Positions 51,975-57,599 of a stretch of 64,000 nt of DNA are shown here, piece after piece (within the stretch, counting starts at the first letter, position 1; each line of letters opens with the position of its first letter). The translations under genes and the position numbers were made by a program. The DNA comes from Mucilaginibacter sp. OK283. Lineage in GTDB: Bacteria; Bacteroidota; Bacteroidia; Sphingobacteriales; Sphingobacteriaceae. The notes under the pieces were generated by a model. It worked only from the letters and a program-made list of their open reading frames with translations, ran no database searches and was not told the DNA's origin. The DNA is taken from assembly GCF_900110415.1 (NCBI RefSeq), contig NZ_FODR01000001.1, forward strand, positions 806,001 to 870,000. Direction: 5' to 3'.

Positions 51975-52003
51975 TTGGTTGCAGAAAATAGCTTCTATCC
52001 GTC

Positions 52004-52027
52004 CAGGTTCTCCTGGAGAGGAACCTG
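52004..52027. terminator. Hairpin between convergent genes
   Basis: CAGGTTC (52004-52010) and GAACCTG (52021-52027) flank TCCTGGAGAG. The same CAGGTTCTC/GAGGAACCTG pattern recurs in the repeat cluster at 54.3 and 55.2 kb. Confidence 0.5.
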
Positions 52028-52043
52028 AACGAATGAAATGTTG

Positions 52044-52523
52044 TTATTTATACCGAAGCAAATAAATTTTATGCAGCGCCATAAAAGAGAAAAAGAGGCC
52101 TGCCAGTATAACTAAAGAACGCAGCCAATTCATCCCGCTCCATTCCGATACTGTTCTTTTAAGCAAATCAACATCGGTGAGTTGGGCAGTCTTAAACATA
52201 ATGTCATTGCGGGGATAGAAATAGGCAAAGGTGAATACATCGGCTAAAATGTATAAAACAAACGCTGCTCCTAGACACAACCGGATGGAAGGAGATGTTT
52301 TCCAAAAAAGTACCAGAACTACCAGGCCCAACACCTGGTTCACAGGCGAAAATATCCTGAAGAAATTTCCGGGGTTTACCGTTTTAAAATAATCTCTTGT
52401 AACGGCAATGGAGTGAGGAATATCGCTTCCCCACGATTTTACATCAACCAGGGAAGTATACAGGTTTACAAACAGCAGGCCGCAGGCAATACTGATAGAA
52501 GCAAATAAAATTATTGTTTTCAT
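52044..52523 (-). CDS. DUF1772-like membrane protein
   Basis: A 159-residue protein with four helices (about 4-22, 60-78, 84-100, 132-152). The arrangement NPGNFFRIFSPVNQVLG and LADVFTFAYFYPRND resembles DUF1772/anthrone-oxygenase-like proteins; function here is unknown. It follows the AraC-type regulator on the same strand (48-base gap), which may control it. Confidence 0.75.
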   Translation of the reverse strand: MKTIILFASISIACGLLFVNLYTSLVDVKSWGSDIPHSIAVTRDYFKTVNPGNFFRIFSPVNQVLGLVVLVLFWKTSPSIRLCLGAAFVLYILADVFTFAYFYPRNDIMFKTAQLTDVDLLKRTVSEWSGMNWLRSLVILAGLFFSFMALHKIYLLRYK

Positions 52524-52571
52524 GTTTTTTTTTCTGCAAAGATGGCTACCGGATGGGCCGCAGAATTGTAT

Positions 52572-53378
52572 TTAACGGACATCTGTATAAATATGCCCCT
52601 TTATTTTGCTCATGTTCCGTTTGTATTCGCCGGGTGTTATTGCCGCGTAAGCTTTAAAAGTTTTGATAAAATGCGATTGATCGGCGAAATGACTTTGAAA
52701 AGCAATTTCCGTCAACGATAATTCGCCCTGGTGAATTAAATCCACCGCATGCAGGTATTTTTTGTAAAGTAAAATTTCTTCGGTATTCATTCCCGTTGCA
52801 TCAAAAAGTTTCCTTGATAAATGACGGGGTGAATAGCATAGTGAATTTGCCAGCACAGTTACCGACGCATCATGTTGATTAGGTGCGTATATAAAACTAT
52901 TCATTAATTGTTCGCGGGGTTGCCAGGCAATCAAATTTGGCCTGAGCCAGGCCAGGAAAACAGATACCCGCGCATCAAAATCATCTTGTTCGGCAAGTTG
53001 CTGCCAAAGTGAGTTGAATGTTGAATCAAGCAAGGTTAAGTCGACTGTAATATTTAAAAACTCGCAGGCGGGCACTTTAAAAATCTCTTTTATGGCCAAA
53101 GGTTGAAACTGGACACCAAAAAAAACCTGTTGTTTGGGGAGATGAAGCTGTATTGGCGTTGTGTTGAATCCACTAATAAAGCAATTGGATAAATAATGTA
53201 ATTTGCCGCCAAGTTGGGCCGGAATAAATGAGCTGTCGCTAAAGTTGAAAATAACCTCTACTACGCCTTTGGGTATAATGTATTCCTTATGAAACTGGTG
53301 GAAAGTATCAACCTGCCAAATAGCATGGATAGCATGCTTAAAGCAATACTCGGTGGGTATATAGTGATTGTAGTTCAA
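52572..53378 (-). CDS. AraC family transcriptional regulator
   Basis: A 268-residue regulator. The N-terminal part (1-150) is a DUF6597-like sensing domain (YIIPKGVVEVIFNFSD). The C-terminal double helix-turn-helix is seen in VTVLANSLCYSPRHLSRKLF and LTEIAFQSHFADQSHFIKTFKAYAAITPGEYKR (family pattern; shortened). Likely activates the neighbouring DUF1772 gene; target sites were not identified. Cytoplasmic. Confidence 0.9.
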   Translation of the reverse strand: MNYNHYIPTEYCFKHAIHAIWQVDTFHQFHKEYIIPKGVVEVIFNFSDSSFIPAQLGGKLHYLSNCFISGFNTTPIQLHLPKQQVFFGVQFQPLAIKEIFKVPACEFLNITVDLTLLDSTFNSLWQQLAEQDDFDARVSVFLAWLRPNLIAWQPREQLMNSFIYAPNQHDASVTVLANSLCYSPRHLSRKLFDATGMNTEEILLYKKYLHAVDLIHQGELSLTEIAFQSHFADQSHFIKTFKAYAAITPGEYKRNMSKIKGHIYTDVR

Positions 53379-53626
53379 TTTTTAAGGAATTGATTATAAG
53401 GCCCCGTTTAAAAATTATCACTAATGCGGCCAGGAAGCTGAAGATGTGAAATTTCAATTCCTTCGGCTTTGTCGGTTAATATAAAGGAACGGATTTTTAT
53501 TTTTCGATGCAAGCTACTCAGCGTGAATTGTTTGCGTGCCATCAGGTTCTTTTAGATTGATACTTATCAGCTATAAATAAAACACGATGTTATTTCGCCT
53601 GTTAAACAGAAGGAGGTAAAATAAAA

Positions 53627-53875
53627 ATGATGTGGCAGAAAATTGATAACAAACTTTACAGGGCATTTAAATTTAAAGATTTTTCGGAAGCATTTTCTTT
53701 TATGACCCGGGTGGCCTTGCTGGCCGAATCGAATAATCATCACCCCACCTGGAAAAATGAATGGAATAAAGTTGAAATCTGGCTGTCGACTCACGACCAG
53801 GGAGATATCGTTACTGATAAGGATAGATCGTTAGCCTCCTCTATTGATAAAATATTGGAAGGTGTTTCGGTTTAA
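53627..53875 (+). CDS. 4a-hydroxytetrahydrobiopterin dehydratase (pterin-4a-carbinolamine dehydratase)
   Basis: An 82-residue pterin dehydratase recycling the cofactor of aromatic amino acid hydroxylases or involved in molybdopterin/pterin metabolism. Conserved [41 protein letters not shown] and VTDKDRSLA match PCD. A clear ribosome-binding AGGAGG (53611-53616) precedes ATG 53627. No aromatic hydroxylase gene is nearby. Short but full length for the family. Confidence 0.9.
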
Positions 53876-53931: not shown

Positions 53932-53997
53932 AAAATAGTTCATAGCCCGGTACGCGGTCTCAGGGTCCTTTTTCAAAGAGACCCTGAGGGGACATAA
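53932..53997 (+). repeat. CTCAGGGTC hairpin repeat, copy 1
   Basis: About 65 bases starting AAAATAGTTCATAGCCCGG. CTCAGGGTC (53959-53967) and GACCCTGAG (53980-53988) form a perfect 9-base stem around CTTTTTCAAAGA. Ends GGACATAA. Confidence 0.85.
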
Positions 53998-54041
53998 GAG
54001 CCCCTCAAAGCAATTGAGCGTTTTCAACCCCGTAGGGGTAT

Positions 54042-54148
54042 AACATTTGTAGAAAAGATAGAAAAATAATGCCCGTGCCGTAGGTACGGAACTTATGTGG
54101 CGTACCTACGGCACGCAAAAATGTTAAATTACGATTGCTACAAATGTT
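54042..54148. repeat. Composite two-layer palindrome
   Basis: Inner stem GTGCCGTAGGTACG (54075-54088) and CGTACCTACGGCAC (54101-54114), 14 bases with no mismatch; outer stem AACATTTGTAG (54042-54052) and CTACAAATGTT (54138-54148), 11 bases. Flanked by small hairpins CCCCGTAGGGG (54029-54039) and GCTCCGATGGAGC (54151-54163). The AGGTACG core type is one I have seen as a dispersed repeat in other Bacteroidota. Confidence 0.85.
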
Positions 54149-54229
54149 TTGCTCCGATGGAGCAGCCTGTCATTTTCTTAACTTAATAGCTTGAAGGAGA
54201 GGAACCAGAGGGAGGATGCCTGTTGTATT

Positions 54230-54295
54230 GAAATAGTTCATCGCCTTGCATGCGGCCTAAGGGGCTTTTTTCAAAGAGACCCTGAGAGGACATAA
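54230..54295 (+). repeat. CTCAGGGTC hairpin repeat, copy 2 (degenerate)
   Basis: Aligns with copy 1 but the left arm reads CTAAGGGGC while the right arm keeps GACCCTGAG, so the stem is broken. Directly followed by the TTCGGTGTTGGACATTCG repeat. Confidence 0.75.
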
Positions 54296-54340
54296 CTTCG
54301 GTGTTGGACATTCGAAATTCAGTGTTCGATATTATTTTTA
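54296..54340 (+). repeat. TTCGGTGTTGGACATTCG repeat, copy 1
   Basis: Forty-five bases CTTCGGTGTTGGACATTC...GTGTTCGATATTATTT. Direct copy at 55457-55500, inverted copy at 56634-56677. Confidence 0.85.
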
Positions 54341-54396
54341 CTTTTGTCCCCTCAGGTGCTCTCGCAGAGGAACCTGAAGGAGAATTGCTATCGTAT

Positions 54397-54463
54397 AAAA
54401 ATAGTTCATAGCCCGGTACGCGGCCTCAGGGTCCTTTTTTCAAAGAGACTTTAAGGGGACGTA
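54397..54463 (+). repeat. CTCAGGGTC hairpin repeat, copy 3
   Basis: Same unit, right arm altered to GACTTTAAG. Preceded by a CCTCAGGTGCTCTCGCAGAGGAACCTGA hairpin (54349-54376, described in parts: CTCAGGT / ACCTGA arms). Confidence 0.75.
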
Positions 54464-54544
54464 AAGTTGAATTTTTTGCCTTTTCGACTTAGACCTTAAG
54501 ACTTTGGGCTAAATACAATCCGCCAATTTATTGTTGACACATCC

Positions 54545-55153
54545 CTAACTATATATCCACATCAGCATCCGTTTTTTTTGCTTCCTGATCAGCGCATCGA
54601 CAATTTTAAGGGTGTTGTTTGATATGGCGGGGCAGCCCCAGCCTTCGGGCGTACCGTTGGGATATACATCGGCTTCGGCAACTTTTTCCCAGGAGTGGAA
54701 TACGATTTGCCTGACATAGGCATTATTATTGGTGCTCTCCAACCCGGTTAAAAAGTATTTTACGTGGATGCCCCAGGCGCTGTAAGCCCGGCCATTAATC
54801 TGGTATTTCCCCAGGGCGGTACAATGGCTGCCGTCACTATTGCTGAAAACGGGTTTGTCTTTTGTCCACACGCCCGACCACGGCGCACTGGCGCAGCCAT
54901 GGCTTACCAGGCCGGTAATCATGGTATCGTTTTTACGAAAATCCCAAACCATAAATCGCTTAACACCCGAGTGCAGGCTCATGTCTATCAAAATACAGTA
55001 ACGGGCATTGTAGCCTTTCTGTTTGCAAAAAGCAAGGCTTTGTTTGGCCTTTTGCCTGGTACGGTTAACGTCGATATGCGGGGCAGCAGCGTTAGCGGCT
55101 GCGGTTAACAGCAGGAACTGCAATAGGGCGAGGAATTTAAGATAAGGTTTCAC
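54545..55153 (-). CDS. Murein L,D-transpeptidase catalytic domain (YkuD-like) protein, exported
   Basis: A 202-residue protein with signal peptide (MKPYLKFLALLQFLLLTAAANA, first 22 residues). The catalytic region of the YkuD_2 type is seen as IVFHSWEKV (His) and EGWGCPAIS with the nucleophile Cys, preceded by LIDMSLHSGVKRFMVWDF and SHGCASAPWS. These enzymes make or modify 3-3 crosslinks of peptidoglycan; for this subfamily activity is predicted, not shown. Flanked on both sides by hairpin repeats. Confidence 0.88.
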   Translation of the reverse strand: MKPYLKFLALLQFLLLTAAANAAAPHIDVNRTRQKAKQSLAFCKQKGYNARYCILIDMSLHSGVKRFMVWDFRKNDTMITGLVSHGCASAPWSGVWTKDKPVFSNSDGSHCTALGKYQINGRAYSAWGIHVKYFLTGLESTNNNAYVRQIVFHSWEKVAEADVYPNGTPEGWGCPAISNNTLKIVDALIRKQKKRMLMWIYS

Positions 55154-55296
55154 CGGTAATTAATAAATATTGTGATGATGTGAAACGTTTGAAAGAAGCG
55201 ATTAGTATTCAGGGGGGTGCGTTTTAAATTTTCCGGGCCTTTTGGCCTCTCAGGTTCTCTCAGAGAGAAACCTGAGGGAATGGATGCCTGATGTGT

Positions 55297-55456
55297 AAAA
55301 ATAGTCCATAGCCCGGTACGCGCCCTCAGGGTCCTTTTTCAAAGAGACCCTGAGGGGACACAACCTGAGGGAATGGATGCCTGATGTGTAAAAATAGTCC
55401 ATAGCCCGGTACGCAACCTCAGGGCCCTTTTTCAAAGAGACCCTGAGGGGACATAA
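55297..55456 (+). repeat. CTCAGGGTC hairpin repeat, copies 4 and 5 in tandem
   Basis: Units at 55297-55363 and 55390-55456, 93 bases apart; the linker GAATGGATGCCTGATGTG is also duplicated. Both carry the hairpin with the loop CTTTTTCAAAGA. Confidence 0.85.
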
Positions 55457-55500
55457 CTTCGGTGTTGGACATTCGAAATTCAGTGTTCGATATTATTTTA
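55457..55500 (+). repeat. TTCGGTGTTGGACATTCG repeat, copy 2
   Basis: Nearly identical to 54296-54340, again placed immediately after a CTCAGGGTC unit, so the two repeats travel as a pair. Confidence 0.85.
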
Positions 55501-55562
55501 CTTCTGTTTTCCCTTAACTTAATAGCATTAAAGAGACCCTGAGGCCGCACATCATGCAATAA

Positions 55563-56429
55563 TTAGTTATTAAAGCCTGCAACCGCCGCAATCTCAATCT
55601 GTGCCTGGCGTGGTAACTCCTTAACGGCTATGCAAACCCTGGCCGGGAATTTATGGTGAAAATATTTGCTGTAAACAGTGTTGGCAGCAGCGTAGTTATC
55701 CATGCTGGTAAGGTAGATGGTTACATTGACCAGGTCCTGGTAGTTAAGTTTATTTTTACGCAATACCTTGCCAAGGTTTTCCATTACCTGTGTTGCTTCT
55801 GCTTCAAATCCGTTGCTTACCAGTGTGCCGGTGTTATCAATTCCAATCTGCCCGGATATATACAATGCATCGCCGTAAATATAAGCATCAGAAAAGGGCA
55901 GGCCTGTTTTAGTTTCGCCGGATTTAGCCTTCCCATTATTCTGTTGCTGAATTTCCGTACCTTTCCTGTCAACCTGTATCCAGTATTCAACTATTTTTCC
56001 GTTGTAAACCCTGTAAACAGCGCTTCCTATTTCAGTTACTGGCAGCCCTGTAGCTTTAAATTCGTCCACATCCCCAATTTGATTGCCGGTTTGTTTCCAG
56101 CGGGCATAAACTTTGTCGTTACCGGCAATAAGTTCGGTAATTTCAAATTGGTAACCGCCATAGCTTTGCAGGAATTCATTGACATGCTGCCTGTAGTTTT
56201 CCGGTGTCCTGACAACGGTTTCCGGGTGCTCTGCATTAAGCTGATGTGCTTTTACCGAATCTGCCATAAATTCTGAGGCCCTTTCGGGTGATTTTCCGGA
56301 ACGAACGATTTCTAAAAAAGCCCTTACTGTTTTTTCTGATTGTTGTGTAGTGCTCATAATTGTATTTTGTGCTTTGCTGCCAAAGGATATTGCTAATAAA
56401 AGCAATAGCGTAATGGTGTAATTTTTCAT
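55563..56429 (-). CDS. Exported SnoaL/ester cyclase-like domain fused to RidA domain
   Basis: A 288-residue protein. Signal peptide MKNYTITLLLLLAISFGSKAQ. Residues about 28-155 resemble the SnoaL/NTF2-like fold (RAFLEIVRSGKSPERASEFM, VYARWKQTGNQIGDV, YNGKIVEYWIQVD). After a Gln/Lys linker, residues about 175-288 are a RidA domain with YISGQIGIDNTG, VTIYLTSMDNY, the catalytic-type Arg in FPARVCIAVKELP and the Glu in QIEIAAVA. A periplasmic RidA fused to an NTF2 domain is uncommon; the biological role is unknown. Confidence 0.85.
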   Translation of the reverse strand: MKNYTITLLLLLAISFGSKAQNTIMSTTQQSEKTVRAFLEIVRSGKSPERASEFMADSVKAHQLNAEHPETVVRTPENYRQHVNEFLQSYGGYQFEITELIAGNDKVYARWKQTGNQIGDVDEFKATGLPVTEIGSAVYRVYNGKIVEYWIQVDRKGTEIQQQNNGKAKSGETKTGLPFSDAYIYGDALYISGQIGIDNTGTLVSNGFEAEATQVMENLGKVLRKNKLNYQDLVNVTIYLTSMDNYAAANTVYSKYFHHKFPARVCIAVKELPRQAQIEIAAVAGFNN

Positions 56430-56565
56430 GATCCTGAGTTTAAATTAACGCAACAAATTTGAGCAAATATTTAAAAGCATAACAGATACAGTTTTTGCTT
56501 ATTTAGACATAACAGATTGATTTTGGAAGTATAAAGCGCGGGAGAGAATGCGCCTGTACGTTGAG

Positions 56566-56630
56566 ATGGCTCATTCACCTGGCATGCGGCCTCAGGGTCC
56601 TTTTTCAAAGAGACTCTGAGGGGACAAAAG
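56566..56630 (+). repeat. CTCAGGGTC hairpin repeat, copy 6
   Basis: GGCATGCGGCCTCAGGGTCC then TTTTTCAAAGAGACTCTGAGGGG; one mismatch in the right arm (GACTCTGAG). Directly followed by the inverted TTCGGTGTTGG copy. Confidence 0.75.
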
Positions 56631-56633
56631 GAC

Positions 56634-56677
56634 AAATAATATCGAACACTGAATTTCGAATGTCCAACGCCGAAATT
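56634..56677 (-). repeat. TTCGGTGTTGGACATTCG repeat, copy 3 (inverted)
   Basis: Complement matches 54296-54340 and 55457-55500. A further partial copy follows at about 56696-56722 in plus orientation (TGGACATTCGGTGTTCGATATT). Confidence 0.8.
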
Positions 56678-56796
56678 TTTCCTTCATTATCCGATATTGG
56701 ACATTCGGTGTTCGATATTAAACCGACCTTAATTCCTTAACTTAATAGCATTAAAAAGGGCCCGGGCGACAAAATTGTTTTGAGTGCTATCTATTA

Positions 56797-57045: not shown

Positions 57046-57263
57046 TAGGGGTATTGTAAATAATGATGTAGAAACGCCTGGCTTTAAGGATTATTATTTT
57101 GACGGATGGGGCGTTACCAAATTGTTACAAAATCTTGTTTACAGCCTCCGCAGCTCAAAATTCAACATATCATGGTAGGCGCAAAGGATTTATCGGGAGC
57201 CTTTGTATCTGTAATGTATAGCTGATAGATTCTTCGTATTTACCTATGACAAATCCCATTTTC

Positions 57264-57347
57264 CTGTCATCCTGAGGAACGAAGGATCTATCAGCTATGC
57301 ATGACCGATAGAAAAGTTGGCAAATGCTTCGTTCCTCAGCATGACAG
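57264..57347. repeat. Palindromic repeat, GTCATCCTGAGG family, copy 3
   Basis: Arms CTGTCATCCTGAGGAACGAAG (57264-57284, one base over the quoting limit in full: core CATCCTGAGGAACGAAG) and CTTCGTTCC...ATGACAG (57327-57347) pair with one mismatch. Upstream GATAGATTCTTCGT (about 57224-57237) pairs with ACGAAGGATCTATC of the left arm, so alternative folds exist. Confidence 0.75.
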
Positions 57348-57452: not shown

Positions 57453-57599
57453 CGACTCACCCCGGCTACGCTACGCTGGCCGACCCTCTCTCCGGCTTAC
57501 GCCGCAAAGAGGGTGAAGCTCAATTTTGGTTTTATTGCCCCTCTATGCGACGCAGTCGGAGAGCGGGGCAGACGGGCGGTGCCTCGTCGGGGTGAGTCG
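57453..57599. repeat. 147-base interrupted palindrome
   Basis: Terminal arms CGACTCACCCCG (57453-57464) and CGGGGTGAGTCG (57588-57599), 12 bases, perfect. Inside are further hairpin pieces CCCTCTCTCCGGC...GCCGCAAAGAGGG (57484-57513) and CCCCTCTATGCG...CGGAGAGCGGGG (about 57539-57567). Confidence 0.75.

Follow-up and report, generated by a model that had tools for sequence, protein, structure and literature searches.

A cluster of bulged inverted hairpins in Mucilaginibacter sp. OK283, probably remnants of a repetitive extragenic palindrome family orphaned from its transposase

The repeat cluster

The window analyzed here is a 64,000-nucleotide (nt) stretch of the 7.19-Mb genome of Mucilaginibacter sp. 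OK283 (G000:C14:806001-870000), and our subject is a cluster of hairpin repeats, interspersed with a companion repeat, that lies in the gaps around its transpeptidase-like and SnoaL-RidA genes. Six 66-nt units begin at positions 53932, 54230, 54398, 55298, 55391 and 56564 and are 76-100% identical to the first; a 30-nt core of the unit is matched five times at ≤3 mismatches, the companion repeat is present in three copies, and 100 shuffles returned none of either. Units 4 and 5 constitute a 93-nt tandem (approximately 55269-55361 and 55362-55454), and all units are extragenic (0/6 within genes). The preliminary description of this cluster, which reported six units of about 65 bases, two of them in a 93-base tandem, placed between these genes and never inside them, is borne out in each of these respects.

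Two hairpins in the opposite orientation had been missed, however. A covariance model (R1), trained on 33 hairpins including three from the REP-associated tyrosine transposase (RAYT; REP, repetitive extragenic palindrome) locus of the relative G026, recognizes eight hairpins there. Units 1-6 are all on the minus strand, and two more hairpins, on the plus strand (54345-54381 and 55243-55279), turn units 3 and 4 into full inverted dimers. In the fullest elements, which are approximately 124 nt long, two hairpins in mutually inverted orientation enclose a spacer of about 40 nt, and the outward ends are of GTCCCC type, except that the left one of the second dimer (55240-55363) has drifted. Units 1 and 6 each consist of one right-hand hairpin, and unit 2 retains part of a left arm. 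The stem said to be common to all six units is kept in units 1, 4, 5 and 6 (55.7-61 bits), whereas in units 2 (45.5 bits) and 3 (36.4 bits) the arms have decayed. No family reached its gathering score in an Rfam scan of the window. The features of the cluster, followed by its genes, are:

53932..53997, minus strand: unit 1, a solo right-hand hairpin with a spacer remnant (model match 53956-53994, 57.6 bits)
54010..54200, no strand assigned: another palindromic element, with a GTGCCGTAGGTACG inverted pair (54075-54088 / 54101-54114) and a companion-type terminal repeat CTTAACTTAATAGC at its end
54230..54295, minus strand: unit 2, a decayed right-hand hairpin at 54254-54292 (45.5 bits)
54296..54339, plus strand: companion copy 1, the right part of a MITE-like element (MITE, miniature inverted-repeat transposable element)
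54342..54464, no strand assigned: full inverted dimer resembling a REPIN (REP doublet forming hairpins), with 54345-54381 (plus), a spacer, and the decayed 54422-54461 (minus), which is unit 3
55240..55363, no strand assigned: full inverted dimer, with 55243-55279 (plus), a spacer, and 55322-55360 (minus), which is unit 4 (41.3 and 61 bits)
55362..55456, minus strand: unit 5, the 93-nt tandem duplicate, with its hairpin at 55415-55453 (minus; 60 bits)
55457..55529, plus strand: companion copy 2, continuing into the terminal repeat TTAACTTAATAGCATT (55514-55529)
56564..56629, minus strand: unit 6, a solo right-hand hairpin at 56588-56626 (55.7 bits)
56624..56752, minus strand: companion copy 3, inverted and the longest in the window (consensus positions 1-129 of 150, 96% identity)
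53627..53875, plus strand: pterin-4a-carbinolamine dehydratase (PF01329), flanking gene
54545..55153, minus strand: YkuD_2 L,D-transpeptidase-like gene (PF13645) within the cluster
55563..56429, minus strand: SnoaL and RidA (Ribonuc_L-PSP) fusion gene within the cluster

Structure and distribution of the hairpin

The consensus hairpin consists of (C/T)GTCC followed by CCTCAGGGTC-T-CTC, a loop, and GAG-GACCCTGAGG, and forms 13 pairs with one bulged T, which is invariant in all of the 33 aligned hairpins (33/33). In most rows of the alignment the tag is (C/T)GTC, and the canonical GT[AG]G tag is not present 5′ of the hairpin. The stem covaries: 93.9% of its cells pair, and 34 cells show double-sided changes compared with 9.9 in shuffles. 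Only 32-53% of cells pair in structures slid along the alignment, a control that is biased toward the proposed stem because this was derived from the same sequences.

Hairpins matching the model (E≤1e-3) were found in 42 of the 61 genomes of a genus sample that includes the window's own. There are 14 matches in the window's genome. Of the 13 that are listed by place, the cluster holds seven, and the other six are at C18:449.6k, C19:128k and C29:37k; we take the fourteenth to be that at 54422 in the cluster. Hairpins occur at three places besides the cluster, together with weaker matches such as that at C20:154.8k (34 bits). A family-wide sample (E≤1e-4) gave hairpins in nine of 81 genomes, comprising three of the six from the same genus and six from three other genera. 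Among the 150 hits listed, which come from 28 genomes, 28 neighbor pairs lie within 300 nt of each other: 17 are arranged tag-out, two tag-in, and nine are on the same strand.

A transposase clade flanked by the hairpins

A first scan for Y1 transposases in eight hairpin-bearing relatives gave, over 34 loci compared (the four of the window's genome included), a single tag-pattern match, near an IS200-like gene at a distance of about 0.6 kb. The four own-genome loci (PF01797) were rejected as mobilizers, blast of the repeats having given no more than short matches at chance level and R1 none. At G026:C4, a Y1 transposase open reading frame sits between hairpins, and because this RAYT with hairpins on both sides had been found, the search was repeated with the G026 protein as query, reversing the negative-looking result of the first scan. 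It identifies a tight RAYT clade, with one locus per genome (L150-L163) in 14 of the 61 genomes; a second clade copy in G061 lies outside this locus set. R1 hairpins (E≤0.05) adjoin every one of the 14 clade loci, but none of the 16 loci of distant RAYTs (L164-L179) and none of the four own-genome Y1 loci (14/14 versus 0/20, Fisher p 7e-10). At 12 of the 14 the hairpin on the left of the gene is on the plus strand and that on the right is on the minus strand; the exceptions are L155, with matches on one side only, and L161, which is at a contig start. The gene at L163 is broken. Hairpins to the left and right of the same gene resemble each other more closely (0.89) than do hairpins of different loci (0.766), a difference reached in 0 of 20000 permutations of one hand-picked hairpin per side at 15 loci.

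Hairpins are also present at all 11 RAYT loci from named genomes (L197-L207; 58-75% identity), including that of Pelobium manganitolerans. For 33 further loci (L208-L240), matches at E≤0.001 were obtained at L209, L220 and L221, with L210 at 0.0011 and L229 at 0.07; the (C/T)GTC tag is kept in the hairpins of L209, L210 and L221, and L220 has a variant tag.

The clade proteins are 189-191 amino acids long. In the ten that were aligned the HUH and Y residues are invariant, with a motif spacing of 82-84 residues and an HUH motif that is NHVH or NHIH in eight and NHAH in two, and the two clade proteins tested exceed the cut-off of 80 for NF047646 (REP_Tyr_transpos), with 82.2 and 81.1 bits. In the portions of PMC6006769 available to us, RAYT subclass 2.6 (Bertels group 5) has a median length of 179, a spacing of 82, and the motifs NH[LIV]H and YIH[QN]NP; its genes are found mostly in Bacteroidetes, and the structures on either side of them are atypical and have no GT[AG]G. 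Judged by these protein features, the clade could perhaps be placed in subclass 2.6.

Two strains of the window's species

In neither of the two genomes of the window's species that were searched, its own and G060, was the clade RAYT found. Both have only a 26-27%-identical RAYT, and that of the window's genome has no hairpin nearby. As no cognate RAYT turned up in the species, the hairpins look like orphans there.

G060 has 11 hairpins in the genus search, seven of them listed by place, and the G060 stretches examined also give 11. These fall at four places, all corresponding to places in the window's genome, with both flanks matching at the cluster, C29:37k and C18:449k. Within the cluster, segments have been re-ordered between the strains at unit boundaries; the block 54000-54347, for example, has the YkuD-type gene on its right in the window strain and on its left in G060, and no hairpin pair at 93-nt spacing was found in the G060 cluster. 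Because the G060 places correspond to those of the window strain and the cluster is rearranged, the hairpin family looks inactive in this species and appears to be changing by recombination.

The strains also differ beside the cluster. Window positions 51987-53551, a stretch of about 1.56 kb that encodes an AraC-type regulator and a protein with an Anthrone_oxy domain, are replaced by about 130 bp in G060 (L180), and G060 carries about 1.39 kb extra at window position 57488.

The companion element

The second, 45-base repeat of the preliminary description is present in three copies as stated, but it is a fragment of a longer element of 150 nt with ends AATGCTATTAAGTTAA..TTAACTTAATAGCATT, which are terminal inverted repeats of 16-17 bp. 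Two of its copies directly follow a unit, as had been said of all three; the third starts about 5 bases past its unit and in the opposite orientation. The element is found in 29 of the 61 genus-sample genomes (E≤1e-6) and at about 30 places in the window's genome, weak matches included.

A clean insertion was found by comparison of the two strains. The G060 copy L305 is missing from the window's genome, where the uninterrupted empty site is C19:80734-81039, and the filled site has a direct repeat, GGGGAGA(C/T)TTACA, of 12-13 bp on both sides, with one mismatch between the repeats. This copy inserted after the two strains parted. Of 13 companion sites of G060 examined outside the cluster, eight match the own-genome loci compared and five do not; four of the five were checked in the window's genome, where L305 is cleanly empty and L309, L315 and L316 have other DNA in the gap. 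Relatives of RAYTs, the IS200/IS605 group, are not known to duplicate their target on insertion, and for this reason the L305 insertion points to a classical MITE rather than to a RAYT. The companion resembles MITEs with long target duplications in its terminal inverted repeats, its lack of coding sequence, its target duplication and its empty site in a sister strain. It differs from them in having no autonomous partner in the window's genome, where a search for the companion ends at up to one mismatch gave ten terminal-repeat sites, with inverted pairs less than 0.25 kb apart, and in that some copies lie between palindrome arms without a direct repeat.

Copies of the latter sort, in which the element is between the arms of a REP-type hairpin, are present at C15:50.4k (L017/L042) and C18:501.8k (L026/L058), and at C29:326.8k (L049) a different element with companion-type ends is placed likewise, again with no direct repeat. 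All three layouts resemble the entry of a palindrome into the tip of a second one. That the companion generally behaves in this way is doubtful, most of the copies seen being arranged otherwise.

Other palindromic repeats

A further repeat unremarked before, the GTGCCGTAGGTACG-pair element, fills approximately 54010-54200, and its arrangement of GTGCCGTAGGTACG pair and companion-type ends recurs at G000:C29:326.8k. Besides the inverted pair at window positions 54075-54114, four GTGCCGTAGGTACG copies precede a Y1 transposase gene of subclass-1.2 type (YIENQEEHH) elsewhere in the window's genome (L031, G000:C17:162190), whereas REPs have been reported absent for subclass 1.2 transposases. At least one copy is near four of the 22 IS200-like Y1 loci scanned, versus one of 42 RAYT loci.

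Long palindromic repeats are found beyond the cluster as well, at 57202-57347 (TGTCATCCTGAGGAACGAAGG-type) and 57453-57599 (CGACTCACCCCGGCTACG-type). The former resembles CGTC/TGTC-tagged repeats with A-T first pairs, and a similar sequence is present in L045.

Interpretation and alternatives

We consider it likely that the hairpins are remnants of a REP/REPIN family whose cognate RAYT is carried by relatives and which is orphaned here, and that the companion belongs to a separate MITE-like element, so that two unrelated kinds of miniature mobile element would have accumulated in one intergenic region. The hairpin family consists of inverted dimers of the bulged hairpin with its (C/T)GTC tag, and a RAYT dedicated to them would spread these dimers by acting on the single strand in its folded form. 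If E. coli TnpA-REP is a guide, this RAYT, a putative Y1 HUH transposase apparently closest to the Bacteroidetes subclass 2.6, may recognize one strand of the folded hairpin together with its tag, cut it, and so move and spread the dimer. It has presumably been lost in the lineage of the window strain, in which the hairpins would be orphans changing mainly through recombination and tandem duplication; the companion would be a fragment of an element moved by some transposase other than the RAYT. For the hairpin, the REP/REPIN-type nature proposed in the preliminary description gains support from the inverted dimers, the genus-wide dispersal and the hairpin-flanked RAYT of relatives. Its suggested checks and remaining proposals fare less well: a REP-associated tyrosine transposase exists as the clade RAYT in 14 of the 61 genomes but the window's own has only the 27%-identical one; mobilization in trans is not evident in this species, with the clade RAYT found in neither genome and the one clean insertion edge belonging to the MITE copy L305; and the companion, taken for the partner of a REP, is part of a different element.

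The other readings are each given a low probability. The least probable of them takes the hairpins for transcription terminators, intrinsic or bidirectional, that are conserved next to the genes here; strong GC-rich stems in intergenic gaps, with predicted folding energies of about -19 to -21 kcal/mol for the best units, would suit that role, but the well-kept hairpins are not followed by a T-run, a terminator scan gave five sites versus 4.9 expected by chance, with a single overlap with a unit (a 5-pair site at 54254-54266 in a decayed unit), the same hairpins adjoin RAYT genes in relatives, and at ten other loci with a YkuD-type gene, from ten genomes, whose gene order was not compared, there is no hairpin within 1.5 kb. 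Neither of the outcomes that would refute the preliminary description, occurrence at this place alone or conservation at the same sites in all relatives as terminators, was observed. It is very improbable that a DDE transposase moves the hairpin element as a classical MITE and that the link to the RAYT is incidental: the dimer ends are indeed mutually inverted (GTCCCC..GGGGAC), yet this does not account for hairpins at 14/14 clade loci versus 0/20 controls or for the matched left and right hairpins within loci, and the conserved one-sided bulge and the tag provide the strand asymmetry expected of single-strand recognition.

Nor do we think it probable that units and companion constitute one composite mobile element that moves whole, although two companion copies start at the identical base after a unit (54296 and 55457) and the companion lies between half-hairpin palindrome arms at C15:50.4k and C18:501.8k. 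The identical junctions can be explained by duplication of one segment, and segments are re-ordered between the strains. Outside the window none of the approximately 30 companion places coincides with a listed hairpin-model place, the genomes G017, G030 and G068 have 14-44 hairpins and no companion match (E≤1e-6), and the sites examined include no strain-specific insertion of unit plus companion within one target duplication.

Several observations weigh against the view of the hairpins as an orphaned, RAYT-dispersed REP family. Copy numbers are low for a REP class (14 in the window's genome and at most 44, in G068), and neither hairpin transposition nor an empty hairpin site was seen between the window's genome and G060. 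L182 of G060 matches C19:128k on one flank only, and therefore cannot count as a clean case of either a shared or a new site; G060 has a full dimer at this place and the window's genome two left-hand hairpins. Genomes with the clade RAYT carry more hairpins (14/14, median 10.5) than do the others (28/47, median 1; Fisher p 0.003), but this test is partly circular, as the hairpins at the RAYT loci enter the counts, and relatedness is not corrected for. Many hairpins occur without a clade RAYT in G015 (30), G017 (19) and G021 (17). The G026 locus having supplied three hairpins to R1, its flank test depends on the training of the model, unlike the other 13, and L202, L205 and L206, among the 11 named loci, may coincide with genomes already counted. 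Double-sided changes affect six of the 13 pairs, a number attained in 24 of 500 shuffles. The L152 protein falls just under the Pfam Y1_Tnp cut-off (21.9 versus 23), and the placement in subclass 2.6 is weakened by a Y motif that is YIHHNP in eight of the ten proteins, YVHRNP in L153 and YIHNNP in L162, of which L162 alone strictly matches the published YIH[QN]NP.

In four hairpin-rich genomes with 14-30 hairpins, G015 (just 71% complete), G017, G021 and G030, the search for the RAYT clade gave no match. In these the RAYT has been lost, or was missed, or another enzyme is at work.

Relationship to known systems

Pseudomonas REPINs are short, non-autonomous inverted hairpin dimers that are intergenic and thought to depend on RAYTs in trans. 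The hairpins described here are similar in being short inverted dimers between genes, but differ in having no GTAG tag, in numbering tens rather than hundreds of copies, and in that neither of the two genomes of the species yielded the clade RAYT.

As far as the available portions of PMC6006769 go, the kind of system is already known, as atypical non-GT[AG]G structures beside subclass 2.6 RAYTs. What we describe shares with those REPtrons a Bacteroidota host, a Y1 HUH protein, the motif spacing, hairpins both at the gene and elsewhere, and the lack of GT[AG]G. The structures in that account are atypical, weaker, and recognized by manual inspection, with no family sequence stated in those portions, whereas here there is a strong stem of 13 pairs with a bulge and a (C/T)GTC tag; the Y motif fits strictly in only one of ten proteins; and several genomes, the window's included, have hairpins without the clade RAYT.

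The CGTC-tagged superfamily, in the parts of PMC3733652 at hand, has stems of 8-9 bp, A-T first positions almost always, loops of 4-5, and no associated transposase. Our hairpins share with it a CGTC/TGTC tag at one end, inverted dimers, and Bacteroidetes among the phyla reported. They differ in the associated RAYT and in the stem, and it is the stem, with 13 pairs and a bulge and starting with CC, that rules out membership of that superfamily. Both tag and bulge matter for E. coli TnpA-REP according to the accessible text of PMC8266576; that system likewise has a 5′ tetranucleotide tag, a bulged imperfect palindrome and a RAYT of the same superfamily, but its tag is GTAG and its palindrome has two mismatches, unlike the (C/T)GTC, the single bulged T and the different RAYT group found here.

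A literature search on Mucilaginibacter with REP, RAYT or MITE returned nothing on these repeats, and neither the hairpin family nor its consensus or orphan state came up in the literature searches, in which two REP papers were covered apart from their supplementary tables.

Implications

For Bacteroidota RAYTs whose REPs are described as 'atypical' in the portions of the literature seen, there is now a REP family that is defined by sequence, supported by covariation and provided with a likely transposase. A natural comparison can be drawn between RAYT-bearing genomes and the others, among them two strains of one species with none detected, and two questions become testable: what guide tetranucleotide a non-GTAG RAYT uses, and what becomes of a REP population after its RAYT is lost.

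The range so far comprises Mucilaginibacter and Pelobium, with CGTCTCCGCAGAG-type hairpins in genomes labelled Chitinophaga and Flammeovirgaceae. It is conceivable, though we rather doubt it, that (C/T)GTC-tagged bulged hairpins and their own Bacteroidota RAYT represent a REP/RAYT lineage that uses another guide tetranucleotide and extends beyond one genus. If so, this non-GTAG lineage would be a missing link between RAYTs and the CGTC-tagged repeats said to have no dedicated transposase, and the window would show such a lineage after loss of its transposase. The lesson of the window itself is more modest: it holds an intergenic graveyard of repeats, still being shuffled by recombination.

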